Positions 4,709-40,143 of a DNA stretch of 64,000 bases are shown in pieces (position 1 is the first letter of the stretch; every line of letters starts with the position of its first letter). The notes beneath the pieces are model-generated. The model was not told where the DNA came from. It did no database searches and was given only the letters and a program-made list of their open reading frames with translations. Origin of the DNA: an uncultured Pelagibacteraceae bacterium (lineage in GTDB: Bacteria > Pseudomonadota > Alphaproteobacteria > Pelagibacterales > Pelagibacteraceae); the NCBI GenBank assembly GCA_902569735.1, contig CACFVE010000001.1, forward strand, positions 1 to 64,000. Direction: 5' to 3'. The translations under genes and the position numbers were made by a program.

Positions 4709-5244
4709 TGGCCAGGAAATTCGATTAAGCACTCAGTTTTATAGCCTTTTTTTTTGAGAAGATTGCTGCCTGGTAAATCAAAGAGATTAATTACAAAAAT
4801 AAATCCAGCAACTATTCCACCAGATATTTCAATCAACTTAGCCGCTGCCTCTGCTGTTCCTCCAGTGGCAATTAAATCATCAATTACAAGAATTCTTTCT
4901 CCTTTGGATATAGAATCTTTATGAACTTCGATTGTCGCTTCACCATACTCGAGTTTAAAATCAACCGAATGAGTTTCAGCTGGAAGCTTATTTTTTTTTC
5001 TAAGTAAAATAAATGGTTTATTTAAAACATAAGACACTGTCGAGGCAAACACAAAGCCTCTAGACTCAATAGCTGAAACTTTATCAAATTCTAATTTTTT
5101 TGAAATTTCGATTATTTTGTTATTTGTATATTTAAAAGCATCGGGATTTTTTATTAAAGTAGTTATATCTCGAAATAATATACCTTTTTTTGGATAATCC
5201 TGAATTGATCTGATATGTTTTTTTAAATCCATATTTAGCTTCAA
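4705..5244 (-). CDS. apt: Adenine phosphoribosyltransferase
   Basis: DYPKKGILFRDITTL, IESRGFVFAS, FILLRKKNKLPAET, RILVIDDLIATGGTAEA PRPP-binding motif. Confidence 0.93.
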   Translation of the reverse strand: MKLNMDLKKHIRSIQDYPKKGILFRDITTLIKNPDAFKYTNNKIIEISKKLEFDKVSAIESRGFVFASTVSYVLNKPFILLRKKNKLPAETHSVDFKLEYGEATIEVHKDSISKGERILVIDDLIATGGTAEAAAKLIEISGGIVAGFIFVINLFDLPGSNLLKKKGYKTECLIEFPGH

Positions 5245-5275
5245 GTTTTAACAAAAAAGGATTAATAATTAAATA

Positions 5276-8748: not shown

Positions 8749-9719
8749 CCAAAAAAAGAATACTAATTTTAGGTGCTACAGGTCAAGATGGATCTTTACT
8801 TTGTAAATATTTAGTCAAAAAAAAGTTTAAAGTATTTGGACTAGCAAGAAAATCTGCTACAGGAAATTTAAAGAATTTAAAAGAAATTATTGATCTGTCT
8901 AATTTTAAAATACTTCACGGCGATCTTCTTGACCTCATTTCTATTGAAAAGATTATAAGAAAAATTAAACCTCATGAAATTTATAATTTTGCAGATCAAG
9001 ACCATGTTAGATGGAGTTTTGAAGTACCTAGCTATTCTTTTGATGTTACTGGTTCTTCAGTGGTGAAATTGTTGGAGATAATTAAAAATCATTCTCCGAA
9101 ATCAAAATTTTTTCAACCTTTGTCATCCAATGTTTTTGGTGGAAACAAAAAAAATAAACAAAGTGAAAACGAAGAATTTACTCCTTTAAGCATTTATGCA
9201 CTTGGAAAAGTGTCTGCTTTTTACGCCTGTGAGATGTATAAAAAGATACATAATTTGAAAGTTTATAGCGCTATTTTTTATAATCATGAATCTGAAGTAA
9301 GACCAGAAGAATATGTAACTAGAAAAATTACAAAAAGTGCTGCTAGAATTTTTCTAGGAAAACAAAAAAAAATTTCCTTAGGAGACATTAAAGCTAAAAT
9401 TGATTGGGGTTATGCTCAAGATTATGTTGAAGCAGCTTATAATATTATGCAACTGAAAAAACCAGATTATTTTATTATTGGATCAGGCAAGGCTTATACA
9501 GTTGAATATTTTCTAAAAAAATCATTTAAGTATGTCGGTTTAAACTATAAAAAATATCTAAAGATTAATCGGAAATTAATAAGACCTATTAAAAATTCTA
9601 CACTCGTTGCTAATACTTCAAAAGCTAGAAAAGTTTTTAAATTTAAAAATAAAACAAATATAAATAAGATTATTTCTATAATGATGGAGAATGATCTTAA
9701 AATAGAGAGCAATAACTAA
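8745..9719 (+). CDS. GDP-mannose 4,6-dehydratase-like SDR (divergent)
   Basis: ILGATGQDGSLLCKYL, YNFADQDHVRWSFEVP, SIYALGKVSAFYACEMYK, FYNHESEVRPEEYVTRKI resemble GMD with substitutions. Confidence 0.7.
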   Translation: MTKKRILILGATGQDGSLLCKYLVKKKFKVFGLARKSATGNLKNLKEIIDLSNFKILHGDLLDLISIEKIIRKIKPHEIYNFADQDHVRWSFEVPSYSFDVTGSSVVKLLEIIKNHSPKSKFFQPLSSNVFGGNKKNKQSENEEFTPLSIYALGKVSAFYACEMYKKIHNLKVYSAIFYNHESEVRPEEYVTRKITKSAARIFLGKQKKISLGDIKAKIDWGYAQDYVEAAYNIMQLKKPDYFIIGSGKAYTVEYFLKKSFKYVGLNYKKYLKINRKLIRPIKNSTLVANTSKARKVFKFKNKTNINKIISIMMENDLKIESNN

Positions 9720-23696: not shown

Positions 23697-24527
23697 TTGG
23701 ATATTCTTTCACAGTCAGAAATTATCTATTTAATTTTCATAATGGTAATAACAGCAATTCCTGCAGGCTTTGCTGCTGGTTTGTTTGGAATTGGCGGTGG
23801 ACTAATTACTGTTCCAATTTTATTTTATATTTTCAGCGCGTCAGGCATTGAACCTGATTACTTAATGCACTTAGCTGTTGGAACATCTTTTGGAATTATC
23901 ATTCCAACTTCAGTTGTTTCTGTTTTAACTCATCATCAACATAAAGCTGTAGATTTTGGTATTGTTAAAGGGTATGGCTTTTTTGTAGCTACTGGAGTGA
24001 TTTTGGGGACTATTTTGGCTGCGAGTTTAAAAACAAAACCTTTGATCTTATTTTTTACAGTTGTTGTTTATATTTTAGCTTTCTATTTGCTATTTCTTAA
24101 ACAAAAAGAGGAAAATTTAGAAATAAAAATGAGTTTATTAGCTAAGGGGGTATCAGGTATCATAAGTGGTTTTATCTCTGCACCAATGGGAATAGGGGGA
24201 GCAGTAATGAACGTTCCAATTCTTAAATTTTTTGGCTATCCAATAAATAAAGCAATAGGTAGTGCTGCAGCTATTGGCTTTATAATAGCTCTATTTGGGG
24301 CGGCAGGTTTTTTAATTTCAGGATCATATTTAGGTGTAAAATTGCCATTGAGCTTGGGTTTCTTAAATATCCCAGCTTTTTTAATTTTTTTTCCAATTAC
24401 TACTTTTATGGCAAGGCTGGGAGCAAAAACTAGTCATAAAATTAATAAGAAAAAAATGACAAAGTATTTTGGTTTGTTTTTACTCGTTATCGGTACTAGA
24501 TTTTTATACGAATATTTTCAACTTTAA
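23697..24527 (+). CDS. Sulfite exporter TauE/SafE (TSUP) family protein; TTG start
   Basis: GFAAGLFGIGGGLITVPIL, HLAVGTSFGIIIPTS, SAPMGIGGAVMNVPIL duplicated TSUP motifs. Confidence 0.88.
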   Translation: MDILSQSEIIYLIFIMVITAIPAGFAAGLFGIGGGLITVPILFYIFSASGIEPDYLMHLAVGTSFGIIIPTSVVSVLTHHQHKAVDFGIVKGYGFFVATGVILGTILAASLKTKPLILFFTVVVYILAFYLLFLKQKEENLEIKMSLLAKGVSGIISGFISAPMGIGGAVMNVPILKFFGYPINKAIGSAAAIGFIIALFGAAGFLISGSYLGVKLPLSLGFLNIPAFLIFFPITTFMARLGAKTSHKINKKKMTKYFGLFLLVIGTRFLYEYFQL

Positions 24528-25966
24528 ATTTTTTGATCATAATCTCCAATTTTTTCAGTTTTTTGAAGTAAATTGTCAATAAAATCAAATATTTTTTTCT
24601 TTCTAGAATTTGATGTTGTGCTTTCCGTTACAACTACTAAAGATGGTTTATTGGAAGAGGCTCTTATTAACCCCCATGATCCATCTTCTAAAGAAAACCT
24701 TATTCCATTCACCTTCAGAACTTCTGTAATTAATTGACCGTCTATTTTAGTATCTTTTTGTTTTAATTTTTGAATTTCATCAATCATTGTTTCAACAATT
24801 TGATATTTCTCTTCGTCTTTACAAAATGGTGCCATAGTTGGAGATTGATAAGTAATAGGCAATTCTTTAATTATATCACTTATCTTTTTATTTTGTTTTA
24901 CTAAAAGATGACAAACTTGAATCGCAGAATTTATTCCATCGTCGTACCCATATCCTAAAGGATTATTGAAAAAGAAATGTCCGCTCTTTTCAAAACCAGC
25001 TAGTGCTTTTTCACTATTAACTTTTCTTTTGATATGAGAATGTCCCGTTTTCCAATATATAGTTTTACAGTTATTTTTTATAAGAATTTTATCATTTTTA
25101 AACAATCCAGTAGATTTTACATCTACAACAAACTTGGAATTTTTATAATTTTCAGATAGATTTCTTGCAATTAGCAAACCTACTTTATCTGAAAATATTT
25201 CATTTCCATTGTTATCTATAACACCACACCTATCTCCATCTCCATCAAAACCAAATCCTATATCAGCGTTATTCTTTTTAACTGCATTAGATATAGCATG
25301 AAGCATTTTAAGATCTTCAGGATTGGGATTATACTTAGGGAATGACCAGTCTAATTTACAGTCCAATTCTATTACTTCACATCCAATTCCTCTTAAAATA
25401 TCTGGAGCGAATACTCCAGCAGTACCATTTCCACAAGCAACTACAGCTTTTATCTTTTTATTAATTTTATTTTTTTTAATTAAATCTTGTATGTAAATAT
25501 TTTTAAAATTTTGAATTTTTTTAATATCACCTTTACCATTTTTGAAATTTTTGTTTAATGTTATATCTTTTAGTTCATGCATTTCTTCTGGGGCATGCGT
25601 TAAACCTTTTTTGATACCCATTTTCACACCAGTCCAACCATTTTCGTTGTGACTAGCAGTAACCATCGCAATAGCATCGGAATTTAAATTAAATTGTGCA
25701 AAATAAACCATCGGTGAAAGAGATAAACCCACATCTTCAACTTTACATCCTGTAGAAATCAAACCTTCTACAAGAGCTTTTTTAATTTTTTCGCTATAAG
25801 ATCTATAATCATGTCCAACTATTACTCTTGGATTGTTATTTTTGGTATGATTTATAATTTGAGTTCCTAAACCTTTGCCTAAATTAGCGATTCCCTCAAT
25901 ATCAATCTCTTTTTCAAAGATCCACCTTGCATCGTACTCTCTAAAACCATTTGGATTGATTTTCAT
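24524..25966 (-). CDS. Phosphomannomutase/phosphoglucomutase
   Basis: FREYDARWIFE, VTASHNENGWTGVKMG catalytic Ser loop, GFGFDGDGDRCGV metal loop, FEKSGHFFFNNPLGYGYDDGI. Confidence 0.92.
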   Translation of the reverse strand: MKINPNGFREYDARWIFEKEIDIEGIANLGKGLGTQIINHTKNNNPRVIVGHDYRSYSEKIKKALVEGLISTGCKVEDVGLSLSPMVYFAQFNLNSDAIAMVTASHNENGWTGVKMGIKKGLTHAPEEMHELKDITLNKNFKNGKGDIKKIQNFKNIYIQDLIKKNKINKKIKAVVACGNGTAGVFAPDILRGIGCEVIELDCKLDWSFPKYNPNPEDLKMLHAISNAVKKNNADIGFGFDGDGDRCGVIDNNGNEIFSDKVGLLIARNLSENYKNSKFVVDVKSTGLFKNDKILIKNNCKTIYWKTGHSHIKRKVNSEKALAGFEKSGHFFFNNPLGYGYDDGINSAIQVCHLLVKQNKKISDIIKELPITYQSPTMAPFCKDEEKYQIVETMIDEIQKLKQKDTKIDGQLITEVLKVNGIRFSLEDGSWGLIRASSNKPSLVVVTESTTSNSRKKKIFDFIDNLLQKTEKIGDYDQKI

Positions 25967-26029
25967 TAGCTATAAATACTAAAGAATATAGGCATTTGTT
26001 ATTAAATGTTTATTAACAAAACTTTCCAC

Positions 26030-26058
26030 TTGCAAAATTAATCAAATGTTCTTATAAT
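26030..26058 (+). promoter_or_regulatory. Candidate sigma70-type promoter of nrdAB
   Basis: TTGCAA (26030-26035) - 17 nt - TATAAT (26053-26058). Confidence 0.6.
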
Positions 26059-26071
26059 GTTCTATTGATTT

Positions 26072-26087
26072 CAATGTTATATAGTAT
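26072..26087 (+). promoter_or_regulatory. Candidate NrdR box 1 (imperfect)
   Basis: CAATGTTATATAGTAT versus recalled consensus acaCwAtATaTwGtgt; the right half matches well and it lies exactly 31 bp from box 2. Confidence 0.5.
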
Positions 26088-26102
26088 ACTAACATAACTG
26101 TA

Positions 26103-26118
26103 ACACAACATATAGTTG
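26103..26118 (+). promoter_or_regulatory. Candidate NrdR box 2
   Basis: ACACAACATATAGTTG closely matches recalled NrdR consensus acaCwAtATaTwGtgt; directly upstream of nrdA. Confidence 0.65.
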
Positions 26119-26151
26119 TTTTGTTAACAAATCGATTAAAATAAGGAAAAT

Positions 26152-28104
26152 ATGAACAAAAACGTATCATTGGCAATAAAGAAAGCTGTCGGCAGTATAA
26201 ACCATAAGAACCAAAATGAATTAAAAAATAATAATGGGCCCAAAAAACCAGATCTATTTTCATTGTCTGGTGATACCGAGCTATTTCAGAATGATAAAGG
26301 TATAACCATTAAAATTGATAGATCTAGAGACGTAAATCTTACCGATTTTGGAAAAGCAACTCTTAAAGATAGATATTTAGGGCAAAACGAAAGCTTCCAG
26401 GACTTGTTTGCAAGAGTAGCCAGCGTTTATGCCGACGATAATTTACATGCTCAAAGAATATATAACTATATAAGCAATCTTTGGTTTATGCCAGCAACAC
26501 CAGTTTTGTCTAATGGTGGAACTGAAAGAGGATTACCTATTTCATGTTTTTTAAACGAAGCAAATGATAGCCTTGAGGGAATTACTGATCTTTGGGAAGA
26601 GAATGTTTGGTTAGCAGCTAGAGGCGGAGGTATAGGGAGTTATTGGGGCAACCTAAGATCAATAGGTGAGAAAATAGGGAAAGTTGGAAAAACTTCTGGA
26701 ATAATTCCTTTTATTAAAGTTATGGACTCATTAACTTTAGCTATCAGCCAAGGCTCTTTAAGAAGAGGATCAGCTGCTTGTTATTTGCAAATAGATCATC
26801 CTGAAATAGAAGAATTCATTGAAATGAGAAGACCAACAGGTGGGGATGTAAACAGAAGATCATTAAATTTGCATCATGGTGTTTTAGTTACTGACGATTT
26901 TATGAGGGCTGTAGAAACTGATGGTCAATGGGCGCTTAGAAGTCCATATGACGGCTCTGTTCAATCTACCATTCCAGCTAGAAATTTATGGATTAGGCTT
27001 TTAACTGCTAGAATTGAAACAGGTGAGCCTTACATAGTTTATATAGATACAGTTAATAGACAAATACCCCAACATCATAAATTAGCAGGATTGAAAGTAA
27101 AAACCTCAAATTTATGCAGCGAGATAACTTTACCAACTGGACTAGATAATGATGGTAAACAACGAACAGCGGTTTGTTGTCTTTCTTCTCTTAATATAGA
27201 TACTTACGATCAGTGGAAAGATGATGCTCAATTCGTTGAAGATGTTATGAGATTTTTAGATAACGTTATGACAGATTTTATTGAAAGAGCTCCAGATGAG
27301 TTTGCTCATGCCAAATATTCAGCAATGAGAGAAAGAAGCGTAGGGCTTGGGGTTATGGGCTTACATTCCTATTTTCAACAAAAGAACATTCCTTTCGGTT
27401 CGGTTATGAGTAAAGTTTGGAATAAAAAGATATTTAAAAATATTCAAGAAAAAGTAGATTTAGCTTCAAAAACTCTTGCGGAAGAAAGAGGAGCGTGTCC
27501 TGATGCTGCAGAATACGGTATCAATGAAAGATTTTCAAACAAAACAGCTATAGCGCCAACTGCATCAATTTCAATTATTTGTGGAGGTTCGTCACCAGGA
27601 ATTGAACCAATCGCAGCTAATAGCTATACCCATAAAACTTTATCTGGATCATTTAATGTTAGAAATAAATATTTGAAAAAAGTCCTTCAAAAATATAGCA
27701 AGGATACAGACGAAGTCTGGTCAACTATAACAACTAACCAAGGTTCGGTTTCTCACTTAGACTTTTTAACTGCTGACGAAAAAGATACTTTCAAAACTGC
27801 TTTTGAAATTGATCAAAGATGGATCGTTGAGTTAGGCGCTGATAGAACGCCTCATATTTCTCAAGCACAATCGATAAATGTTTTTGTACCAGCAGATATA
27901 CATAAAAAAGAACTTCACGATATTCATTTTCAAGCATGGAAAAAAGGATTGAAAAGCCTTTATTATTGTAGATCTAAATCTATTCAAAGAGCAGAAAATG
28001 TAGAGGCAGGATCATCAACAGATGTGACGAAAAATGTTTATTCCAAATCAAATGAATCAAATAATAAAGACAACAATTATGAGGAGTGTTTATCATGTCA
28101 GTAG
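26152..28104 (+). CDS. nrdA: Ribonucleoside-diphosphate reductase alpha subunit
   Basis: MPATPVLSNGGTERGLPISCFL, ENVWLAARGGGIGSYWGNLRS, SLRRGSAACYLQIDHPEIEEF, NLCSEITLPT, C-terminal CLSC. Confidence 0.95.
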   Translation: MNKNVSLAIKKAVGSINHKNQNELKNNNGPKKPDLFSLSGDTELFQNDKGITIKIDRSRDVNLTDFGKATLKDRYLGQNESFQDLFARVASVYADDNLHAQRIYNYISNLWFMPATPVLSNGGTERGLPISCFLNEANDSLEGITDLWEENVWLAARGGGIGSYWGNLRSIGEKIGKVGKTSGIIPFIKVMDSLTLAISQGSLRRGSAACYLQIDHPEIEEFIEMRRPTGGDVNRRSLNLHHGVLVTDDFMRAVETDGQWALRSPYDGSVQSTIPARNLWIRLLTARIETGEPYIVYIDTVNRQIPQHHKLAGLKVKTSNLCSEITLPTGLDNDGKQRTAVCCLSSLNIDTYDQWKDDAQFVEDVMRFLDNVMTDFIERAPDEFAHAKYSAMRERSVGLGVMGLHSYFQQKNIPFGSVMSKVWNKKIFKNIQEKVDLASKTLAEERGACPDAAEYGINERFSNKTAIAPTASISIICGGSSPGIEPIAANSYTHKTLSGSFNVRNKYLKKVLQKYSKDTDEVWSTITTNQGSVSHLDFLTADEKDTFKTAFEIDQRWIVELGADRTPHISQAQSINVFVPADIHKKELHDIHFQAWKKGLKSLYYCRSKSIQRAENVEAGSSTDVTKNVYSKSNESNNKDNNYEECLSCQ

Positions 28105-29102
28105 TTGAAAAAGCAAAGCCAGGAATAATTCAACCAAAAAAAATGGGCTTATTAGTGGAAAATCCAGTTTATAAACCGTTTAGATACCCATGGTGTTACG
28201 ATGCATGGTTAACTCAACAAAGAATTCATTGGTTGCCGGAAGAAGTTCCTCTAGGAGATGATGTAAGAGATTGGCAAAAAAACTTAACTATAGAAGAAAA
28301 AAATCTTTTAACACATATATTTAGATTTTTTACTCAAGCAGATGTTGAAGTTAACAACTGTTATTTAAGACATTACACAACTGTTTTTAAACCCACTGAG
28401 GTTTTAATGATGATGACAGCTTTTGCTGCAATGGAAACAGTTCATATTGCTGCTTACTCTCACCTTTTAGATACAATCGGAATGCCAGAAACAGAATACT
28501 CGGCTTTCTTACAATACAAAGAAATGAAGGATAAATATGATTACATGCAAGGATTTGATGTTAAGTCGAAACATAACATTGCTATGACAATGGCTGTATT
28601 CTCTGCTTTCACAGAAGGACTTCAACTTTTTGCAAGTTTTGCAATACTCTTAAACTTTCCAAGATTTAATAAAATGAAAGGAATGGGTCAAATAGTTACT
28701 TGGTCGGTAAGAGATGAAACTTTACATTGTAACTCTATGATTAGATTATTCAGAGATTTTGTGAAAGAAGAACCACAAATATGGAATGATAAATTAAAAA
28801 AAGAAATCTATGATGCATGCAAAACTATAGTAGAACATGAAGATGCATTCATTGATTTAGCTTTTCAAATGGGTCCTTTAGAAGGTTTAACTGCTGAGCA
28901 AGTTAAACAATATATCAGATTTATAGGAAACAGAAGATTAGAACAACTAGGACTAAATCCAATTTATGATGTTAAGAAAAATCCTCTAACATGGTTAGAC
29001 ACAATGTTAAACGGAGTAGAGCATATGAACTTTTTTGAAGGTCGTGCAACAGAATACTCTAAAGCTTCGACTAGAGGAACTTGGGGCGAAGTTTTTGCTT
29101 AA
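28095..29102 (+). CDS. nrdB: Ribonucleoside-diphosphate reductase beta subunit
   Basis: Internal ATG at 28095 preceded by GAGGAG; overlaps the nrdA end by 10 nt. RFFTQADVEVNNCYLRHYTTVF, AAMETVHIAAYSHLLD, WSVRDETLHCNSMIRLF. Confidence 0.95.
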   Translation: MSVVEKAKPGIIQPKKMGLLVENPVYKPFRYPWCYDAWLTQQRIHWLPEEVPLGDDVRDWQKNLTIEEKNLLTHIFRFFTQADVEVNNCYLRHYTTVFKPTEVLMMMTAFAAMETVHIAAYSHLLDTIGMPETEYSAFLQYKEMKDKYDYMQGFDVKSKHNIAMTMAVFSAFTEGLQLFASFAILLNFPRFNKMKGMGQIVTWSVRDETLHCNSMIRLFRDFVKEEPQIWNDKLKKEIYDACKTIVEHEDAFIDLAFQMGPLEGLTAEQVKQYIRFIGNRRLEQLGLNPIYDVKKNPLTWLDTMLNGVEHMNFFEGRATEYSKASTRGTWGEVFA

Positions 29103-29109
29103 GAAAACT

Positions 29110-29132
29110 AAGTAAAATATAGTTTTACTTTT
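29110..29132 (+). terminator. Weak candidate intrinsic terminator after nrdB
   Basis: AAGTAAAA-TATAG-TTTTACTT perfect 8-bp stem followed by TTCC; AT-rich with a short U tail. Confidence 0.4.
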
Positions 29133-29161
29133 CCTAATTAAATAAAGTATCATAATGCTTA

Positions 29162-29911
29162 ATGAGCATAGTTATCAAGCACTATGATGCGAAATTCAAA
29201 AAAGAATTAAATCCAAAAGTCGGTTTAATAGCTTTATCGACAGACCAAACTATTGAAAATGATTTTCAAAATATTTGTAATAATTTACCAGTAGATATTT
29301 TTATAAACCGTATTCATAATAAAAATCCTTTAACAAAAGAAAATCTTTTAAAAATGCGAGAAGATTTAGCTTCTGTAACAAAGAAAATACTCCCTGATGA
29401 AAAATTAAATACGATCGCATATGGTTGCACATCTGGAACTATAACTATTGGGGAAGATAGTGTGAAAGAAAAGATATTATCAGCTAAACCTGGCAGTTAT
29501 GTTACAACTCCAGTAACTTCTGCAATTAAAGCTTTTAAACTAATGAATATTAAAAAAATTGCTTTATTTACTCCATATCCAGATCCGGTAAACAAAATAA
29601 TTCTAGAATATTTTACCAAAAAGAATATCGAAGTTTTATCATTTGCGAGTTTAAATTTAAATTTAGACTCAGAGTTTGCCAATGTTGATCCAAATTATAT
29701 TTTAGAAATATCATCAAAATTGGAAACAAAAAATGCAGATGCATTATTTATATCTTGTACGGCTTTACCAGTTCTTAATATTCTTGATAAATTAGAAAAA
29801 AAAATAAAAAAACCGGTGCTATCAAGTAATCAAACTTTAATATGGGATACGATAAGATCAATTGGGTATAAATCTCCGATAAGAGGATATGGCAAACTTT
29901 TAGAAAATTAA
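29162..29911 (+). CDS. Asp/Glu racemase / maleate isomerase / EutA-like family protein
   Basis: Two catalytic-Cys contexts typical of the superfamily: IAYGCTSGTITIGE and ALFISCTALPVLNIL; VTTPVTSAIKAFKLMNIKKIALFTPY. Confidence 0.75.
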   Translation: MSIVIKHYDAKFKKELNPKVGLIALSTDQTIENDFQNICNNLPVDIFINRIHNKNPLTKENLLKMREDLASVTKKILPDEKLNTIAYGCTSGTITIGEDSVKEKILSAKPGSYVTTPVTSAIKAFKLMNIKKIALFTPYPDPVNKIILEYFTKKNIEVLSFASLNLNLDSEFANVDPNYILEISSKLETKNADALFISCTALPVLNILDKLEKKIKKPVLSSNQTLIWDTIRSIGYKSPIRGYGKLLEN

Positions 29912-31078
29912 ATGCTTTTTGAAAAACAAGAATACAAAGAACGTTTAAAAAAAGTAAAGATCAGTATGCAAAAAAAAGGCATTGATCTATTAGTTTCTCA
30001 AGACCCAGCTAATATGAATTACCTAACAGGTTATGATGCTTGGTCTTTTTATTATGCCCAATGTGTCTTAGTTCACATAAATGAAGACGAGCCTATTTGC
30101 TTTGTAAGAGCGCAGGATGGTGGAGGCGCATACATTAAAACATATTTACAGGATAAAAATATTATAGAGTACGATGAAAAGTATATTCATACTTGGCCTC
30201 TACATCCTTATCAGTATTTAGCTGAAATAATAACAAACAGAAAATGGGATAGTTTAAATATTGGTTTAGAAATGGACAGTCATTACTTTACAGCTTTTTG
30301 CTATGAAACACTTAAAAAAGGCTTACCTAACGCAAAACTCCTAGATGCTGAACGATTAGTTAACTGGGTACGAGTTGTTAAATCAAATGAAGAAATTAAA
30401 TTAATGCAATCAGCCGCTCGTATTGTTGAAAACGGAATGAGAGCAGCTTTTAAAAGTATTAATCCTGGAGTAAGACAATGCGATGCTGTAGCAGATATTC
30501 AAAAAGCTTTATTTAATGGAACAAAGGAATTTGGAGGAGATTATCCAAGTATTGCAACTTTATTACCTACAGGAAAAGGAACTTCGGCCTCTCATTTAAC
30601 CGCTACAGATGAAAAGTTTGTTTCAGGTGAGGCAACAATTATTGAAATTGCCGGTGCTTATAAAAGATATCACTGTCCTATGGCTCGTACGATTTTATTA
30701 GGTGAAAAGGATCAAAAAAAAATAGATACTATGAAAGCTACCAATGAAGCTTTAGATACAGGCATTGCTGTTACAAAACCCGGTAATACAGTTGATGATG
30801 TTGCTCAAAAATTTTGGAGCGTTTTAGATAAATATAAAATTAAAAAACACTCAAGAACAGGATATTCTATTGGGATTGGATATCCTCCAGATTGGGGAGA
30901 ACAAACATTCAATATATTAAAAGGAGATAAAACTATTTTACAACCTAACGTTACTTTTCATATGATTGCAGTAATGCAGTTTGGAGATTGGGGCGTAGAA
31001 GCTAGTGAAGCGGTGAGGGTAACAGAAACAGGATCAGAATTATTCTGCAATTTATCTAGAGAATTACATATTAAATAA
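29912..31078 (+). CDS. Peptidase M24 family hydrolase, EutD/DoeA (ectoine hydrolase)-like
   Basis: DPANMNYLTGYDAWSFYYAQCV, FGGDYPSIATLLPTGKG, IEIAGAYKRYHCPMARTILLG, SRTGYSIGIGYPPDWGE resemble ectoine hydrolase sequences recalled from memory. Confidence 0.7.
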   Translation: MLFEKQEYKERLKKVKISMQKKGIDLLVSQDPANMNYLTGYDAWSFYYAQCVLVHINEDEPICFVRAQDGGGAYIKTYLQDKNIIEYDEKYIHTWPLHPYQYLAEIITNRKWDSLNIGLEMDSHYFTAFCYETLKKGLPNAKLLDAERLVNWVRVVKSNEEIKLMQSAARIVENGMRAAFKSINPGVRQCDAVADIQKALFNGTKEFGGDYPSIATLLPTGKGTSASHLTATDEKFVSGEATIIEIAGAYKRYHCPMARTILLGEKDQKKIDTMKATNEALDTGIAVTKPGNTVDDVAQKFWSVLDKYKIKKHSRTGYSIGIGYPPDWGEQTFNILKGDKTILQPNVTFHMIAVMQFGDWGVEASEAVRVTETGSELFCNLSRELHIK

Positions 31079-31125
31079 TAAAAACCTTGAAATAAATTTT
31101 CTTAAATGCTTTAAATAATCATTAT

Positions 31126-32220
31126 ATGACGTCTTCAAAAAGCTTTGTAAAATTTGATAAAGTAGACAAAAGTTATGATGGTAAAGTTTTAGTCGTTAAA
31201 GACTTAAATCTTGATATCAATGAAGGTGAATTTATTACAATGTTGGGACCATCTGGTTCTGGAAAAACAACTTGCTTAATGATGTTAGCAGGTTTTGAAA
31301 CACCAACTAATGGTGAAATTTATTTAGATTCAAAACCTATTTCTCGAATTCCTCCACACAAAAGAGGAATAGGAATGGTTTTTCAAAATTATGCTTTGTT
31401 TCCTCACTTAACAGTTTTCGAAAATTTAGCTTTCCCATTAAAAGTAAGAAAACTTTCTCAAGATGATATTATAAAAAAAGTAGACAAAGCTTTATCTATG
31501 GTTTCTTTATCAGGTTTTGAAAAAAGAATGCCTAATCAGTTATCAGGTGGTCAACAACAGAGAGTTGCTGTTGCAAGATCTTTAGTTTTCGATCCCCAAC
31601 TAGTTTTAATGGATGAGCCCTTAGGAGCTTTAGATAAAAATTTAAGAGAAAGCATGCAATATGAAATTAAACACATTCACGAAAATATTGGAGTAACAGT
31701 GGTTTATGTTACCCACGATCAAAGTGAAGCTCTTACTATGTCTAGTAGAATAGCAGTTTTTAATGATGGGAAAGTACAGCAATTATCTAGCCCAGACAAA
31801 CTATACGAAGAACCAGTAAATTCATTTGTTGCAGAATTTATAGGTGAAAATAATACTTTTTCTGGGCAAGTTACAGATATTTCAGGAGGTAAATGTAAAG
31901 TAAAATTAGATACTGGCGCTGAAATAATTTCTAATCCTATAAGAGTAAAAACAAAAGGAGAAAAAACTAAAGTTTCTCTAAGACCTGAGAGAGCGATTAT
32001 AGATCCAGAAGAAAAAATGGACAATAAGCACAAAGGAAAAATAGAAGAAGTTATCTACCACGGAGATCATGCAAGAGTTAGATTAAATTTATTAGGTAAT
32101 AAAGAATTTATTTTAAAAGTTCCAAACAGTTCTGCAAGAATGGATATAAAACCAGGTAATGAAATTAACGTTGGTTGGAATAGCAATGACGCTAGAGCTT
32201 TAGATCCAAAATCAATCTGA
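31126..32220 (+). CDS. ABC transporter ATP-binding protein (PotA-like)
   Basis: Walker A GPSGSGKTT, signature LSGGQQQRVAVARSL, Walker B LVLMDEPLGALD, C-terminal TOBE domain. Confidence 0.92.
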   Translation: MTSSKSFVKFDKVDKSYDGKVLVVKDLNLDINEGEFITMLGPSGSGKTTCLMMLAGFETPTNGEIYLDSKPISRIPPHKRGIGMVFQNYALFPHLTVFENLAFPLKVRKLSQDDIIKKVDKALSMVSLSGFEKRMPNQLSGGQQQRVAVARSLVFDPQLVLMDEPLGALDKNLRESMQYEIKHIHENIGVTVVYVTHDQSEALTMSSRIAVFNDGKVQQLSSPDKLYEEPVNSFVAEFIGENNTFSGQVTDISGGKCKVKLDTGAEIISNPIRVKTKGEKTKVSLRPERAIIDPEEKMDNKHKGKIEEVIYHGDHARVRLNLLGNKEFILKVPNSSARMDIKPGNEINVGWNSNDARALDPKSI

Positions 32221-32275
32221 GATTGATTCAATCAAAAAATCCTAATTTTAAACAATAATTAGCTTAAATCAGAGG

Positions 32276-32304
32276 TTGACTTAATTTTTGTTAATTGTTG
32301 TAAT
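32276..32304 (+). promoter_or_regulatory. Candidate sigma70-type promoter in front of the solute-binding protein gene
   Basis: TTGACT (32276-32281) - 17 nt - TGTAAT (32299-32304). Confidence 0.6.
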
Positions 32305-32339
32305 AAATAATTAATAAACGTTTAAACGAAGGGGAATAA

Positions 32340-33458
32340 ATGAGAAAATTAAGTAAACTATTACTTACGTTAGTTTTTGCTCTTTCAATTTCTTCAACTT
32401 CATATGCAGTTACAGTTGCATCATGGGGTGGAGCTTATACTGAAAGTCAAAAATTAGGTTATGGTGATCCATCCGCAAAAAAATTAGGCATACCTATTAA
32501 CTGGGTAGACTATTCAGGAGGATTATCTGAAGTTAAAGCTCAAAAAGCAGCTGGAAAAATTACTTGGGACATAATGGATGTTTTCGCTATGGACACCATC
32601 AATGGATGTGACGAAGGTCTATTTGTTAAATTTGATTTTGACAAAGACTTTCCGCCAGCTCCAGATGGAACTAAAGCGAGTAAAGATTTCTTTACATCAA
32701 TGCCAAGTGAATGTGCTGTAGGGAATATTTTATATTCTTGGACATATGCTTACAATGACTCAAACATTGGTAGCAAAAAACCAAAAACTATAAAAGATTT
32801 CTTTGACACTAAAACATGGCCAGGTAAAAGAGGCGTATACAAAAGTGCTATGCACAATCTAGAGATGGCATTAGCAGCTTCTGGAACTAAGCCAGGTAAA
32901 GGTGGAAAGAAAATTTACAAACAACTTTCAAAGGAAAAAGGTCTAAAAAAAGCAATGGATAAGATGGAAGCTCTTTGCAAGGACCCTAACGGCGGATGTG
33001 TATTTTGGTCAGCTGGTGCAAAACCACCTGAACTACTTATGCAGGGTGAAGTTGTAATGGCAACAGGTTGGAATGGTAGATTCTTTAACGCAGAAGTTGG
33101 AGAAGGCGCACCATTAAAACAAGTTTGGGATGCTCAAGGTTTAGATTACCAATACATGGTAGTTGTAAAAGGTGGACCAAATGAATCTGATGCTATGAAA
33201 GCAATTGCAGAAATGACTAGCACAGAAGGTTTAGCTGGTTCAGCAAAATATATTGCTTACGCACCTTGGAGAAAATCATCTCTAAAAATTATTGAAGCAG
33301 GTGAGCCTTGGTATAAAGATGGCAAGACAAACATGATGACTCAAATGCCAACTCATCCACAAAATACAAAAAGCTATATCCTAATTGATGCATTATTCTG
33401 GGCTGACAACGGTACAGAAATTGGCGAAAAATGGGAAGCTATGAAATCTGGTCTTTAA
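32340..33458 (+). CDS. Extracellular solute-binding protein (PotD/PotF-like)
   Basis: Signal peptide MRKLSKLLLTLVFALSISSTSYA; VASWGGAYTESQK, WDIMDVFAMD, YSWTYAYNDSNIGSKKPKTIKDFFDTKTWPGKRG. Confidence 0.9.
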   Translation: MRKLSKLLLTLVFALSISSTSYAVTVASWGGAYTESQKLGYGDPSAKKLGIPINWVDYSGGLSEVKAQKAAGKITWDIMDVFAMDTINGCDEGLFVKFDFDKDFPPAPDGTKASKDFFTSMPSECAVGNILYSWTYAYNDSNIGSKKPKTIKDFFDTKTWPGKRGVYKSAMHNLEMALAASGTKPGKGGKKIYKQLSKEKGLKKAMDKMEALCKDPNGGCVFWSAGAKPPELLMQGEVVMATGWNGRFFNAEVGEGAPLKQVWDAQGLDYQYMVVVKGGPNESDAMKAIAEMTSTEGLAGSAKYIAYAPWRKSSLKIIEAGEPWYKDGKTNMMTQMPTHPQNTKSYILIDALFWADNGTEIGEKWEAMKSGL

Positions 33459-33493
33459 TTAAGTTTTAAAGACTTAGATGATATATTATATTT

Positions 33494-33522
33494 AGGGCGG
33501 TTATTAACTAACCGCCCTTTTT
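33494..33522 (+). terminator. Intrinsic terminator after the solute-binding protein gene
   Basis: AGGGCGGTTA-TTAAC-TAACCGCCCT perfect 10-bp stem, 5-nt loop, followed by a T tract. Confidence 0.92.
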
Positions 33523-33526
33523 ATTT

Positions 33527-34780
33527 ATGAGCAGTGAAACACAACAAATTTTAACAACTGATGGAATACCTCTAGAGGTAAGTCTTAAAAAAGTTGAAAG
33601 AAGAAATAAATTAAAAGCTTTTCTTCTTGTTGCCCCCTTATTATTTTTTTTATTAATTGTATATATTTCTCCAATAGTTGGAATGCTTTTTAATAGCGTT
33701 GATGATCGAATGGTAACCAATGCACTTCCAAAAACATTCAAAGCAATGGAAGATTGGAATGGAAAAGAACTTCCACCAGAAAAAGTATTCGAAGCTTTTC
33801 ATATTGATTTTCAAAAATTAATTGAAGAAGAGAGAGAAGGAAAATTATCAACCCAGCTTAACTATGAAAAAAATGGTTTCAAAAGTATTATTAAAAAATT
33901 AAGACGAAAATCAAAATCTTTTGAGGAAGGAAATTACAAAGAACAAATAATGGCTGTTCATGAAAGATGGGCTGACGTTGAATATTGGAGAGCAATAAAA
34001 CGAAGAGCTCCTGCATATACCTACTCTAAATATTTAAAAGGTGTAGACATGTATCAAAATGAAGATGGTAGATTAGTTCAAGTAGAGGAAGATCGTAGAA
34101 TTTATAAAAAATTATGGGTTAGAACACTTAAAATAGCTTTTTACGTAACCCTTTTCTGTTTTTTAATGGCTTACCCAATAGCTCACTTATTAGCAACTCT
34201 TCCAATGAAGTATAGTAATCTACTGATGATTTGTGTTCTTTTACCTTTCTGGACTTCATTACTTGTCAGAACTGCAAGTTGGATGATTTTACTTCAACAG
34301 CAAGGAGTAGTTAATGATTTTTTAGTTTGGATTGGTCTTGTAGCAGACGACAAAAGATTGGTGATGATGTACAATGAAACAGGAACTTATATTGCCATGA
34401 CTCAAATTTTGTTACCATTTATGGTTTTACCTCTTTATAGTGTAATGAAAACTATTTCACCAAGTTTAGTTCGAGCAGGTAAATCTCTTGGAGGAACGCC
34501 ATTTATTACATTTTGGAAGGTGTATTTTCCATTAACAATTCCAGGAATAGGTGCTGGTTCTCTTTTAGTTTTTATTCTTGCGATAGGGTACTACATTACT
34601 CCAGAATTAGTTGGAGGAGCTTCAGGAACACTTATAAGCAATCAAATTGCTTATCATATGAAATATACTTTAGATTGGAGTTTTGCATCGGCAATGGGGT
34701 TAATGCTATTAGTTGGCGTGTTAGCTGTTTACTGGGTTTACAATAAACTAGTAGGAATTGATAATATAAAATTAGGATAA
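33527..34780 (+). CDS. ABC transporter permease (PotB-like) with large insertion after TM1
   Basis: APLLFFLLIVYISPIVGML, ... SLGGTPFITFWKVYFPLTIPGIGAGSLLVF EAA-type loop. Confidence 0.9.
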   Translation: MSSETQQILTTDGIPLEVSLKKVERRNKLKAFLLVAPLLFFLLIVYISPIVGMLFNSVDDRMVTNALPKTFKAMEDWNGKELPPEKVFEAFHIDFQKLIEEEREGKLSTQLNYEKNGFKSIIKKLRRKSKSFEEGNYKEQIMAVHERWADVEYWRAIKRRAPAYTYSKYLKGVDMYQNEDGRLVQVEEDRRIYKKLWVRTLKIAFYVTLFCFLMAYPIAHLLATLPMKYSNLLMICVLLPFWTSLLVRTASWMILLQQQGVVNDFLVWIGLVADDKRLVMMYNETGTYIAMTQILLPFMVLPLYSVMKTISPSLVRAGKSLGGTPFITFWKVYFPLTIPGIGAGSLLVFILAIGYYITPELVGGASGTLISNQIAYHMKYTLDWSFASAMGLMLLVGVLAVYWVYNKLVGIDNIKLG

Positions 34781-34782
34781 AT

Positions 34783-35637
34783 ATGGCTTTACCAAAATAT
34801 ACAGAACCACATTATAGAGTATGGCATTACTTTTATCTTTTTATATGCGGTTGCGTTTTTTTCTTTTTAATTGCACCTTTGTTTGTAATTTTTCCATTAT
34901 CATTTAATGCAGAAGAATTTTTAGTAATAACAGACGGAATGAAAAGATTAGATCCAGATGCTTTCTCTTTAAGATGGTATAAGGACATGGTCTATGGAAC
35001 AAAGAATCCATGGGGACTAGCAGCAAAAAATAGTTTTTTCATAGCAATATTTGCAACAATAGGAGCTGTTATTCTTGGAACAGTTGCAGCCCTGGGATTA
35101 AGTAGCAGATATATGCCTTACAAAGGAATAATAATGGCTACTTTAATTTCTCCTATGATTGTTCCATTAATTATTTCAGGAGTAGCAATTTTCTTTTTTA
35201 TGGCCAAAGCAGGTTTAGCTGCTACACACACAGGAATAGTTTTAGCACATATAATATTGGGAACTCCATTCGTAGTAATTACAGTTACTGCTACATTATC
35301 AGGATTTGATCATAGCGTTACTAGAGCTGCAGCCAGTCTTGGAAGTAACCCTGTAAACACATTTATGAAAATAACGCTACCGCTTATTTTACCTGGAGTT
35401 ATTTCTGGAGCTTTATTTGCATTTGTTACATCTTTTGACGAAGTTGTGATTGTTTTATTCTTAGCTGGATTAGATAATACAACTATTCCAATTCAAATGT
35501 GGACTGGGCTGAGAGAACAGCTAAGTCCAACAATATTATCTGTAGCGACTTGTTTAATTCTTCTATCAACTTTAGTCTTGGTTGCTGCAGAACTTTTGAG
35601 AAGAAGATCTGAAAGAATAAGAGGAATAAATAGATAA
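34783..35637 (+). CDS. ABC transporter permease (PotC-like)
   Basis: FPLSFNAEEF, AASLGSNPVNTFMKITLPLILPGVISGALFAFVTSFDEVVIVLFL. Confidence 0.92.
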   Translation: MALPKYTEPHYRVWHYFYLFICGCVFFFLIAPLFVIFPLSFNAEEFLVITDGMKRLDPDAFSLRWYKDMVYGTKNPWGLAAKNSFFIAIFATIGAVILGTVAALGLSSRYMPYKGIIMATLISPMIVPLIISGVAIFFFMAKAGLAATHTGIVLAHIILGTPFVVITVTATLSGFDHSVTRAAASLGSNPVNTFMKITLPLILPGVISGALFAFVTSFDEVVIVLFLAGLDNTTIPIQMWTGLREQLSPTILSVATCLILLSTLVLVAAELLRRRSERIRGINR

Positions 35638-36285
35638 TTAATTTAAAAGTAACTTAAAGCTATTAATAAAGTCTGGCCGTAGTACATAGTCAGATTTATC
35701 ATTGTTCTTAATTTTCTTTAAAACTTCAATACCATAAAGAACCTTTCCAACTGGAGTATATCTACCATCAAAAGTTGGAGAATCTTGAAGTAAAATAAAA
35801 AACTGGCTGTCCTCGGTATCTTTTTTATTTAATTTTACCATGGCTACAGTACCTTTTTTGAATTTAAATGTTTTGTTAAACTCTGATTTAATGGTGCCAA
35901 ATCCAGATTTTCCTGATCCAATATAGGTATAGTTAATATTATCTTTTTTCCCAAATTCTAAATCTCCTGCTTGAACTAAGACGTCTTTTATTACTCTGTG
36001 AAAAGCAATATTATTATATTTACCAGATTGAATTAACATTTTAAATCTTTTTACTGCAAGCGGAGAAATATCTGGGTAAAGTTCTATAATCACATTTCCA
36101 CAACCAACGTTTAAAACTGAAATATTTTCAGGTTTTTCAAAATTTATTTTTTTTGGATCATAATCTTTTACAAATAAACATTTATTGGGTAAAATTACAA
36201 AAATATAAAAAATTAATATAATTAATATTAATATTAAACCTACAAGAAATTTTTCAGATTTACTTTGTTTAATTTCTTCAACCAT
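35638..36285 (-). CDS. Membrane-anchored cyclophilin-type peptidyl-prolyl isomerase
   Basis: N-terminal TM segment; IELYPDISPLAVKRFKML, NIAFHRVIKDVLVQAGD, DTEDSQFFILLQD, GKVLYGIEVLKKI. Confidence 0.88.
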   Translation of the reverse strand: MVEEIKQSKSEKFLVGLILILIILIFYIFVILPNKCLFVKDYDPKKINFEKPENISVLNVGCGNVIIELYPDISPLAVKRFKMLIQSGKYNNIAFHRVIKDVLVQAGDLEFGKKDNINYTYIGSGKSGFGTIKSEFNKTFKFKKGTVAMVKLNKKDTEDSQFFILLQDSPTFDGRYTPVGKVLYGIEVLKKIKNNDKSDYVLRPDFINSFKLLLN

Positions 36286-36302
36286 AAATATAAAATTAAG
36301 TT

Positions 36303-37481
36303 TTATATACTTTCAATTCTTTTTTGGAGGTTAATCAACATTTTTAAACACTGTTTAAGTTGATCATAGGAAATATATTCATCTACTGTGTGTGCTTGTT
36401 CGATAGACCCTGGGCCACAAATTACTGTGCTAATTCCAGAATTTTGAAATAAACCTGCTTCAGTTCCAAACGACATAGTATTTTTAGAATTATCACCAGT
36501 TAAGTTAGAAATAAGATTTACAGCTTCTGATGTCTCTTCTTTATTAAAACCAACTACCTCTCCAATTATTTCTTTCTTTATATTTCCCTTAGGATTATTC
36601 TTTTTTATCTTTGGTATTAAAATATCTTTTGCAAAAGCGTCAATATTATTACTAATGAACTCACCATCTTCTTTATTAATTGGTCTAACTTCCCATTCAA
36701 GGGAACATTGATCTGCAATTACGTTTGCACCTATTCCTCCAGAAATTTTGCCTATTTGAAGGGTTGAATACGATGGAGAAAAAATAGTTTTTTTAGAATT
36801 TCTCTTTTTTAATTCATCTCTTAATTCTAAAAGCTTATTACTGTATTGAATTGCATATTCTATAGCACTAACACCACTTTCAGGATTTGAGGCGTGTCCA
36901 GATAATCCGGTAAAATGAGTTATATATTCATTATAACCTTTATGGGCGTTTATTGCTTTCATATTTGTTGGTTCACCAATTATACAAGCTGAGAAACTAA
37001 TATTTCTTTTTTTTAAATCAGCTAAGACTAATGGAGCTCCTAAACAACCAGTTTCTTCATCAAATGTATAAGAAAAATGTATAGGTGCCTTCAATTTTTT
37101 AGAAACAAACAAAGGTGCAACTGCTAAAGTACAAGCAATAAAACCTTTCATATCACACGCTCCTCGACCATAAACTTTATTGTCTTTTTTTCTCGCTATA
37201 AAGGGATCAGAAGTCCATTCGCTAGATACAGCAGGAACTACATCTGTATGTCCTGATAAAATAATTCCTTTTTCATTAGAATTATTTTTACCTCTAATTG
37301 TTGAAAATAAATTAGCTTGGGATTTAGACTCATTAAAAGTTTTAAAGGATTTTGCGCCAGCATCTTCTAATTTTTTTTCACAATATTTAATTAATTCAAG
37401 ATTTGAATTACCAGATGTTGTTTGAAATTTTATAAGGGTAGATAAAATTTTTAACGTCTCAGAAAATATTTGATCGATCAT
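36303..37481 (-). CDS. argE: Acetylornithine deacetylase / M20 family amidohydrolase
   Basis: ILSGHTDVVPAVSSEWTSDPF, YGRGACDMKGFIAC, SYTFDEETGCLGA, GEPTNMKAINAHKGYNE. Confidence 0.82.
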   Translation of the reverse strand: MIDQIFSETLKILSTLIKFQTTSGNSNLELIKYCEKKLEDAGAKSFKTFNESKSQANLFSTIRGKNNSNEKGIILSGHTDVVPAVSSEWTSDPFIARKKDNKVYGRGACDMKGFIACTLAVAPLFVSKKLKAPIHFSYTFDEETGCLGAPLVLADLKKRNISFSACIIGEPTNMKAINAHKGYNEYITHFTGLSGHASNPESGVSAIEYAIQYSNKLLELRDELKKRNSKKTIFSPSYSTLQIGKISGGIGANVIADQCSLEWEVRPINKEDGEFISNNIDAFAKDILIPKIKKNNPKGNIKKEIIGEVVGFNKEETSEAVNLISNLTGDNSKNTMSFGTEAGLFQNSGISTVICGPGSIEQAHTVDEYISYDQLKQCLKMLINLQKRIESI

Positions 37482-38606
37482 TTATCTTTGGTTTAACAAC
37501 ATTACTTCTCTTACTTCTTTTCCTTTATATTTAGACAAAGGTCTAATTAACTTGTTCGAAGTATGTTGTTCCATGATATGAGCTGACCAGCCAGTAATTC
37601 GAGACATCACAAATATTGGAGTATAAAAGTCTATATCGATTCCCATCATATAATAAGTAGGACCACACGGAAAATCTACATTAGGATGTATGTTTTTTCT
37701 TTCTATCATTACTTTTTCTAAAATTTCATACATTTTAGTATAATTTTCTTTTTTCAAAAGTTTTGCTACTTTAAACATATAATGTTTCATTGTTGGAACT
37801 CTTGAGTCTCCTGTTCTATAAACCCTATGCCCAAAACCCATTACCACTTTTTTCTTTGCCAAAGCATTTTCTATCCAAGCTTTAGCTTTTTCTGGTTTAC
37901 CTATCTCTTTCATCATGTGCATAACAGCCTCATTTGCTCCTCCATGCAAAGGTCCTTTTAGTGAAGCTATAGCTCCAGTAATTGCTCCATGTAAATCAGA
38001 CAAGCTGCTCGTTATAGTTCTAGCAGTAAAAGTTGAAACGTTAAAACTATGTTCTGCATACAAAATTAAAGATATATCAAAAGCTCTGACAATTTCTTTA
38101 TCAGGTACTTTATTAAACATCATTTTGAAAAAGTTTTCCGAAAATGATAAATTTTTGCTAGGTGAAATTATTTTTTTGCCTTTTCTATACCTAAAATAAG
38201 CTGCAACCGCTGTAGGAGTCTTAGCAAAAATTCTCATAGTTTTTTTCATATTTGCTTTAGGAGAATTATTTCTAGTATCTTTATCTTCCAATGCCATGAG
38301 ACTTACACAAGTTCTAATAACATCCATAGGATGAGCATTTTTTGGCATTGATTGAATATTTTTTAAAATTTGTTTTGATAGTTTTCTTTCTGATCTCTCC
38401 TCTTTAATAAATTTCTTTAATTGTTTTTTATTAGGTAAATCTCCATTTAAAACTAAGTAAGCGACTTCTTCGAAATCACATTTGTCACATAGTTCTTGGA
38501 CTGTGTATCCTCGATAAGTAAGAGTACTTAGTTCTGGCACGACATGAGAAATAGTTGTTTCGTCAACAACAATACCTAATAGACCTTTTTTAATTTCTTC
38601 ACTCAT
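37482..38606 (-). CDS. prpC: 2-methylcitrate synthase / citrate synthase family
   Basis: KGLLGIVVDETTISHVVPELSTLTYRGYTVQEL, LYAEHSFNVSTFTARTI, GALKGPLHGGANEAVM-type motif, MGFGHRVYRTGDSRV; next to a prpB-like gene. Confidence 0.85.
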   Translation of the reverse strand: MSEEIKKGLLGIVVDETTISHVVPELSTLTYRGYTVQELCDKCDFEEVAYLVLNGDLPNKKQLKKFIKEERSERKLSKQILKNIQSMPKNAHPMDVIRTCVSLMALEDKDTRNNSPKANMKKTMRIFAKTPTAVAAYFRYRKGKKIISPSKNLSFSENFFKMMFNKVPDKEIVRAFDISLILYAEHSFNVSTFTARTITSSLSDLHGAITGAIASLKGPLHGGANEAVMHMMKEIGKPEKAKAWIENALAKKKVVMGFGHRVYRTGDSRVPTMKHYMFKVAKLLKKENYTKMYEILEKVMIERKNIHPNVDFPCGPTYYMMGIDIDFYTPIFVMSRITGWSAHIMEQHTSNKLIRPLSKYKGKEVREVMLLNQR

Positions 38607-39502
38607 TATTCATGCCCTTCAGTTGAAAAATCTGTAATCTTTTTTCCTGGGATGTTGTACTTCTCATATTCTACTAATTCGTACAACCTTTTTCTAGTTT
38701 GCATTTTGTCTATTATATTATTTTGGTGTCCATCATTAAATATTGATTTTAGTCCCATCTCGACATTTTGCATTGCTAGTCTTTGTGTGGAGACAGGATA
38801 AATAACTAAATTATATCCTAAATTTTCTAATTGACTTTTATTTAAAAGTTTAGATTTTCCAAATTCAGTCATATTAGCTAATAAGTATCTCTTTGAAATC
38901 TTCCTTACTTTTTCAAACTCTTTTTCATCTTTCATAGCTTCTGGAAAAATCATATCTGCCCCAGCGTCTTCATAAGCTTTAATTCTATCTAATGTTTTAT
39001 CGATACCTTCGACAGTATTTGCATCAGTTCGTACAATGATTAAAAAATTTTTATCAGATCTTGAGCTAACAGATTCTTTAATTTTTTTAACCATCTCATC
39101 TTTTGTAATTAATTCTTTATTATCAAGATGACCACATCTTTTTTCAGCAATTTGATCTTCAATGTGACATCCTGCTAATCCTTTGCTTTCAAATGTAGAT
39201 ATTGTTTTTTTACAACTACCAAAACCTGTGTCGGCATCCACTATTGTAGGTAAGTCCGTTACACGTGCGATTTGATTAGCTCTATAGCTTACGTGATCTA
39301 AAGTAGTAAGCCCAATATCAGGCAATCCTAAATCGTTAGACATAACTCCACCTGAAATATAAACTCCATCAAAACCAATTTCAGAAATTAATTTTGCACA
39401 TAATGGATTATATGCACCAGGAAATCTTAATAATTTTTTAGATTGTAATTGTTTTACAAAATTTGACCTTTTTTCTAATGCGTTTTTTTTTGTGAAATGC
39501 AT
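38606..39502 (-). CDS. prpB: Methylisocitrate lyase / isocitrate lyase-PEP mutase family
   Basis: RFPGAYNPLCAKLISEIGFDGVYISGGVMSNDLGLPDIGLTTL, DADTGFGSCKKTI, HIEDQIAEKRCGHLDNKELI. Confidence 0.88.
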   Translation of the reverse strand: MHFTKKNALEKRSNFVKQLQSKKLLRFPGAYNPLCAKLISEIGFDGVYISGGVMSNDLGLPDIGLTTLDHVSYRANQIARVTDLPTIVDADTGFGSCKKTISTFESKGLAGCHIEDQIAEKRCGHLDNKELITKDEMVKKIKESVSSRSDKNFLIIVRTDANTVEGIDKTLDRIKAYEDAGADMIFPEAMKDEKEFEKVRKISKRYLLANMTEFGKSKLLNKSQLENLGYNLVIYPVSTQRLAMQNVEMGLKSIFNDGHQNNIIDKMQTRKRLYELVEYEKYNIPGKKITDFSTEGHE

Positions 39503-39543
39503 TTCCTCAGACTTATATTAGAGGGGGTTATAAAAATCAAAGA

Positions 39544-40143
39544 TTATTTAATTAAAATAAATAATCCAGTTAAAACTAACAACAACGCAAGAAAATATTC
39601 TGTTATTTTTTTTGTCTTTTGATTATTAATAAATGTTCTTAATCCGCTACCAAAAAGAGCCCATAAACTTATAGACGGGAAGCATATGACTGCAGCAGTA
39701 ATGGTTACAAACGCTACACCAATAAAGATGTTTTCTTCTGTTGGAAAAAACCCTGAGGCCACTGCTATTGCTATAGACCATGCTTTAGGATTTATGAACT
39801 GAAAGAGCGATGCTTCATATAACTTTAAAGGTCTTCCAGATTCTTTTTTATCTAAACTGAAAGACCCAATCATTTTCCAACTCAAATAAAGCAAATATAA
39901 AAAACACAATATTTTCATATAAATTTGTATTTGTGGATAGAGAAGAAAAAGATTTGCCAAACCAAAACATACTAAAGCAATTTGAAATATGTGACCTAAA
40001 GGAATACCTATCAAATGAGGCAATGTTCTGATAAATCCAAACTTCATTCCTGAAGCTGTTAGCATTGCATTGTTTGGTCCTGGAGTTATAAACATCGTAA
40101 AATAGAAAGTAGATAAAGCAGAAAACAAAGCAAAATTAATCAT
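39544..40143 (-). CDS. LysE family translocator
   Basis: FITPGPNNAMLTASGMKFGFIRTLPHLIGIPLGH, LYEASLFQFINPKAW. Confidence 0.88.
   Translation of the reverse strand: MINFALFSALSTFYFTMFITPGPNNAMLTASGMKFGFIRTLPHLIGIPLGHIFQIALVCFGLANLFLLYPQIQIYMKILCFLYLLYLSWKMIGSFSLDKKESGRPLKLYEASLFQFINPKAWSIAIAVASGFFPTEENIFIGVAFVTITAAVICFPSISLWALFGSGLRTFINNQKTKKITEYFLALLLVLTGLFILIK

Follow-up and report, generated by a model that had tools for sequence, protein, structure and literature searches.

What does SAR11 import and degrade with a gene pair that resembles two genes of ectoine catabolism and heads a transporter operon assigned to polyamines? In the surface ocean, no bacteria outnumber those of the SAR11 group, whose PotD is often one of the proteins detected in greatest abundance in surface seawater. 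The window, a stretch of 64,000 nucleotides analysed here, comes from a SAR11 genome (829 kb, 74% complete) with relatives in the Pelagibacteraceae. A preliminary description had proposed that a EutA-like protein and an M24 hydrolase encoded side by side degrade ectoine or a related solute. The potABCD-type transporter operon headed by this pair, absent from that description, is the more important part of the locus. On balance, we favour the reading that the eutA-M24-potABCD genes, together with an argE-like gene, form a streamlined module that takes up and breaks down ectoine, 5-hydroxyectoine or another carboxylated cyclic amidine very close to them. The locus is best interpreted, though by no means with assurance, as a novel form of the ectoine catabolic module.

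The EutA-like gene (29162–29911, forward strand) encodes a protein of 249 amino acids that matches TIGR02990 (E 7e-64; 215.5 bits, below the cut-off of 318 bits) and the Amdase family PF17645 (E 9e-22). The two catalytic-type cysteine motifs expected of EutA are present, around Cys89 (AYGCTSGT) and Cys199 (FISCTALP), and both are invariant in 10 other SAR11 copies, in EutA of Sinorhizobium meliloti and in two more EutA-like proteins. The gene had thus been rightly described as a member of the Asp/Glu-racemase superfamily with two catalytic cysteine contexts. After a gap of 0 nt follows the M24 gene (29912–31078, forward strand), whose product of 388 amino acids carries Peptidase_M24 and Creatinase_N domains. 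All motifs previously quoted for it, including FGGDYPSI..LLPTG and CPMARTILLG, were found again.

The hydrolase matches the EutD model TIGR02993 with an E-value of 1.8e-141 and 471.8 bits, short of the equivalog cut-off of 613 bits, which is passed in none of 148 SAR11 genomes. Its best solved structure is DoeA (6twk/6twj, E 1e-102), the next family in the PDB ranking being prolidase (5e-19). Homology to EutD/DoeA (EC 3.5.4.44) of Halomonas elongata, S. meliloti and R. pomeroyi extends over the full length, with 44–49% identity (44% to the solved Halomonas DoeA). In a midpoint-rooted tree, whose root is arbitrary, the SAR11 M24 proteins form one group beside the DoeA group and a Priestia-type group, with moderate supports (91/100, 66/75); they appear as a sister clade to DoeA, within the DoeA-like portion of the tree. 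The preliminary description had named placement among creatinases or prolidases as evidence against its proposal. The protein grouped instead with EutD/DoeA in the PDB ranking and, with moderate support, in the tree, and an assignment to creatinase or prolidase was rejected on these grounds.

Despite this proximity, the SAR11 enzymes differ from DoeA in several respects, including their score under the equivalog cut-off, their separate clade and their partner genes. His228, Glu245, His254, His350 and Glu366 of the window protein are common to DoeA and kept in all SAR11 copies, so that the catalytic His/Glu set is present in the window protein, as are the DoeA signature motifs. However, of the 101 positions at which 16 DoeA sequences do not vary, every SAR11 copy retains the DoeA residue at 69, whereas the other 32 are not retained throughout. 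Fixed or frequent changes (Halomonas numbering first) are Trp367>Gln356, Trp241>Ala231, His54>Ala49, Trp67>Cys63 and Tyr129>His124, and some of the changed positions adjoin catalytic residues. Judging from these comparisons, the reaction type is likely the same as that of DoeA, and ectoine is a candidate substrate; since residues invariant in DoeA have changed, the actual substrate may differ. The proposal of ectoine degradation by the pair therefore stands as regards the class of chemistry, the nearest relatives being EutD/DoeA, and is no more than tentative for ectoine itself, given the score under the EutD cut-off and the 32 positions not kept in all SAR11 copies.

Other M24 genes were encountered in related settings. 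One Pelagibacterales MAG (L046) has an M24 gene at 6092 without eutA and potABCD. The gene that ends 5 nt before it (4980–6086, forward strand) is homologous to that of L-arginine:glycine amidinotransferase (PDB match with E 7e-83), a hint that the M24 enzyme there acts on a guanidino compound. A second, more divergent EutD-like M24 (L124:9191–10408, genome G013), 42% identical to that of the window and nearer the Priestia type, is encoded elsewhere in a SAR11 genome. At L045, a carbon-nitrogen hydrolase gene of the nitrilase superfamily (8523–9329) is inserted between eutA/second M24 and the EutD-like M24; a 261-amino-acid gene between doeA and doeB in L145 was considered as its counterpart and dropped for want of a match. 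Further divergent M24s, with about 20–26% identity to EutD, occur in clusters at L015:8039–9244, L045:7339–8514, L117:3625, L119:15590 and L133:10518, those of L117/L119 and L133 being 54–62% identical to that of L015. Mesorhizobium terrae (L167) encodes a divergent M24 with 61% identity to the latter next to a Pot-type operon.

In the window, the eutA-M24 pair is followed on the same strand by potA, the solute-binding protein gene, potB and potC. The potA-type ATPase (31126–32220, forward strand, 364 amino acids) scores 373.8 bits with TIGR01187, over the cut-off of 355.6. The potB-type (33527–34780, forward strand, 417 amino acids) and potC-type (34783–35637, forward strand, 284 amino acids) permeases belong to PF00528, and their best NCBIfam matches, under the cut-offs, are PotB/PotH and PotC/PotI, respectively. 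A peptidyl-prolyl isomerase-like gene separates potC from the ArgE-like gene. No enuR-like gene was found in the SAR11 operon, nor any Rfam element in positions 24000–40000.

Of 80 SAR11 loci, nearly all show the eutA-M24-potABCD order, indicating that this arrangement is not due to chance. eutA is present in 77 of the 80, usually a few bases from the M24 gene, and potA begins at most 150 nt after the latter in 75 of the 76 loci where this could be tested. Some loci harbour a diverged transporter (PotD about 41% identical) at the same place beside eutA-M24, which suggests that the pairing outlasts replacement of the transporter. Across the 148 SAR11 genomes, M24 and potD agree in 143 (59 with both, 84 with neither) and M24 and argE in 142 (59 with both, 83 with neither); potD and argE each occur in 59 of the 61 M24-positive genomes and in only 3–4 of the 87 M24-negative ones. 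Fisher p values are below 1e-29 for each pair among the three genes, although they overstate independence, as these genomes are related. Within the genus of the window, most sampled genomes are devoid of the module and the same six carry M24, potD and argE. Two SAR11 genomes (L139, L140) have kept potABCD, with eutA, M24 and argE all missing. Such a joint loss is expected if the three enzymes constitute one catabolic unit and import alone is still useful; the transporter thus has a use of its own. Upstream of potABCD, these two genomes carry ABC genes that resemble, by eye, those for zinc uptake. In two Pelagibacter-type genomes (L141, L142), genes for a 3-hydroxyacyl-CoA dehydrogenase, an agmatinase (over cut-off) and an aldehyde dehydrogenase are located between potC and argE.

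The solute-binding protein (32340–33458, forward strand, 372 amino acids, PF13416) belongs to the same family as the published SAR11 PotD; aligned with 8jv1, deposited as 'SAR11 PotD in complex with GABA', it is 71% identical by Foldseek and 73% by MAFFT. Its identity to Escherichia coli PotF and PotD is 16–21%, as against 36% to a GABA sensor. Polyamine nitrogens are held by acidic residues, Asp168, Glu171 and Asp257 in PotD and Asp247 and Asp278 in PotF. The window protein has Ser, His and Gln at the former and Arg and Gln at the latter, a set unlike that of PotD and PotF. At the PotD Asp257 position, the other copies compared have Glu or Asp, while an arginine replaces PotF Asp247 in all 33 aligned SAR11 copies and in the DoeA-linked ones. 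This residue (Arg247, in an NGR motif) was present in every homologue compared and accordingly points to a carboxylate-type ligand rather than to ectoine as such. The predicted structure (alignment-based, pLDDT 85) matches first 8jv1, then opine and GABA binders; spermidine-binding PotDs appear only from rank 35 on. By its residues and predicted fold, the SAR11 'PotD' appears to be a GABA/opine-type protein and not a polyamine binder of the PotD/PotF type. Fold and carboxylate-binding-type Arg in NGR are shared with the GABA/opine binders Atu4243 and MotA, which, unlike SAR11 PotD, are not linked to EutD, EutA or ArgE as far as examined. In a tree, the SAR11 proteins join the DoeA-linked PotDs (support 0.89), apart from unlinked controls. 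The chain from the carboxylate to N1 of ectoine is the skeleton of GABA. Moreover, 2,4-diaminobutyrate (DABA), the precursor of ectoine, is a GABA analogue that lowers GABA uptake (PMC5320631).

The M20/argE-like gene previously noticed at 36303–37481 was confirmed on the reverse strand; its product of 392 amino acids exceeds the cut-offs of both PRK07522 (445 bits) and TIGR01892 (356.7 bits). The preliminary description had noted that EutE/DoeB is not at the locus, and a search for a copy hidden elsewhere found none in the genome of the window or in any of the 148 SAR11 genomes. EutB and EutC were each absent from the same 148 genomes at the thresholds used, as was EhuB over its cut-off, in a search confined to the Ehu type among the known importers (Ehu and the TRAP types UehABC and TeaABC). 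Judging from its presence in nearly the same genomes as M24 and potD, and from the homologues that adjoin doeA in four other lineages, the ArgE-like enzyme is probably the missing deacetylase, in place of DoeB/EutE. Class III aminotransferases, for which DABA is a possible substrate (at best about 35% identical to Atf), occurred in all 34 genomes tested; being present with or without M24, they do not provide a DABA aminotransferase specific to M24-positive genomes and are uninformative.

How does this module compare with known ectoine systems? In the ehuABCD-eutABCDE cluster of S. meliloti, a single operon likewise holds eutA, eutD and the genes of an ABC importer. The earlier remark that these two genes are neighbours in known clusters needs correction here, since eutB and eutC lie between them. 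In contrast to S. meliloti, SAR11 has a Pot-type importer instead of Ehu and an ArgE-like M20 enzyme instead of EutE, and lacks eutB, eutC and eutE. Putative ectoine clusters of Gram-positive bacteria contain eutD-eutC-atf and the M20 gene abgB, without EutE (PMC13188858). They share with SAR11 the association of a EutD homologue with an M20 amidohydrolase in place of EutE, but the M20 type, operon and transporter are different, and EutB and EutC are present.

Reading about 34 DoeA-family neighbourhoods in other alphaproteobacteria, we found Pot-type operons clustered with DoeA-family genes in four lineages (L117–119, L121, L133 and L134), the operons having about 61–69/35–42/51–53/56–62% identity to that of the window; the gene in L121 resembles DoeA without being DoeA proper, and L134 also has DoeB. 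In L133, eutA, an ArgE-like gene (45% to that of the window), doeA (607.7 bits against the cut-off of 613), the aminotransferase gene atf and potABCD all lie together. ArgE-like genes abut doeA, from a 4-nt overlap to a 9-nt gap, instead of doeB in L120, L133, L151 and L159; for the rest, L120 and L151 contain pieces of canonical clusters (atf and asnC, plus ssd or eutBC). Of these four genomes, three have distant EutE matches at most and the fourth none over the cut-off; the genome of L133 (G300) encodes a 240-bit EutE homologue elsewhere, under the cut-off. On a plasmid of Mesorhizobium sp. AR07 (L163:3305–11380), genes for a EutA-like protein, a divergent M24, an amidase and a Pot-type ABC importer are clustered; they may encode a related pathway that acts on a different amidine or amide.

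From gene order, homology, co-occurrence, binding-site substitutions and the clustering of these transporter and deacetylase types with DoeA elsewhere, we infer a substrate and a succession of catalytic steps. 'PotD' would capture the ligand through its carboxylate, by means of Arg247, and PotABC would import it. The EutD-like M24 enzyme would then open the amidine ring to yield N-alpha-acetyl-2,4-diaminobutyrate, from which the ArgE-like M20 enzyme would remove the acetyl group, replacing EutE/DoeB; we propose this role because N-alpha-acetyl-DABA is N-alpha-acetylornithine shortened by one carbon. A housekeeping class III aminotransferase could finally deliver aspartate semialdehyde for biosynthesis, and EutA would probably deal with the stereochemistry of the hydroxylated form. 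Several observations weigh against this model: M24 and EutA score under the equivalog cut-offs, DoeA-invariant residues have changed, SAR11 lacks EutB and EutC and its operon an enuR-like gene, two genomes retain potABCD alone, Pelagibacter-type genomes carry an agmatinase gene between potC and argE, SAR11 cultures take up polyamines, and an amidinotransferase gene adjoins M24 in L046. More tentatively, as a possibility that we hold just short of probable, SAR11 PotABCD would primarily import ectoine or a close cyclic amidine, not polyamines, and feed this route of EutA, EutD-like M24 and ArgE-like M20 without EutB, EutC and EutE.

The published view is that PotABCD imports polyamines, which would make eutA and M24 mere genomic neighbours. 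SAR11 cultures take up five polyamines, and the assignment was made because no other candidate was found; its authors write that this role still has to be validated and do not mention an ectoine-type gene context, the word ectoine being absent from their paper (PMC8437039). The agmatinase and aldehyde dehydrogenase genes of Pelagibacter-type genomes and the two genomes with potABCD alone also fit this view. We nevertheless consider it improbable: the binding protein is remote from E. coli PotF and PotD, with Asp247 replaced by Arg, Asp168 and Glu171 lost and Asp257 a Gln in the window, in fold it is matched best by binders of GABA and opines, and the transporter co-occurs with M24 and ArgE. 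Still less can be said for the idea that the M24 enzyme is a common dipeptidase, prolidase or aminopeptidase P, encoded next to a transporter of peptides or amino acids. The M24 fold and weak prolidase matches would agree with it, yet the gulf between the DoeA and prolidase E-values, the place of the protein within the DoeA-like part of the tree and the replacement of the Asp metal ligands of prolidase by Glu245 and Cys255, as read from the alignment, make it very improbable indeed.

A more serious competitor, although still an unlikely one, is that the operon takes up GABA or some other acid of the omega-amino, guanidino or lactam kind. Its M24 enzyme would then have shifted to that substrate, for instance to a cyclic derivative of GABA or, as in creatinase, to a guanidino acid, and the ArgE-like enzyme would deacylate a product. 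The crystal of SAR11 PotD with GABA, the SAR11-specific changes at DoeA-invariant positions, the Pot-type binding proteins that Mesorhizobium (L167) encodes close to M24s and a creatininase, and the amidinotransferase adjoining M24 in L046 all speak for it. However, the M24 enzyme is nearest to DoeA and shares its operon with EutA, the same transporter type and ArgE-like genes cluster with DoeA elsewhere, and GABA itself requires none of the three enzymes.

Ectoine transport in marine SAR11 has been listed from annotation (PMC6018831, PMC10030771), and a link between the Pot operon and ectoine was not found in the literature searched, whose coverage did not extend to the Nature 2024 study of SAR11 binding proteins and the 2020 EutD/EutE structure paper. 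Our analysis challenges the polyamine assignment of a very abundant marine transporter, which may feed on ectoine-like osmolytes instead of, or besides, polyamines. The ligand of the importer and the type of deacetylase are both directly testable with purified proteins. If our favoured reading is true, ectoine importers of the Ehu and TRAP types would be joined by a further one, and a second kind of N-acetyl-DABA deacetylase would be known. If the ligand of PotABCD is ectoine-like, the flux now attributed to polyamines would have to be revised, and a marine osmolyte would have a major sink in SAR11.
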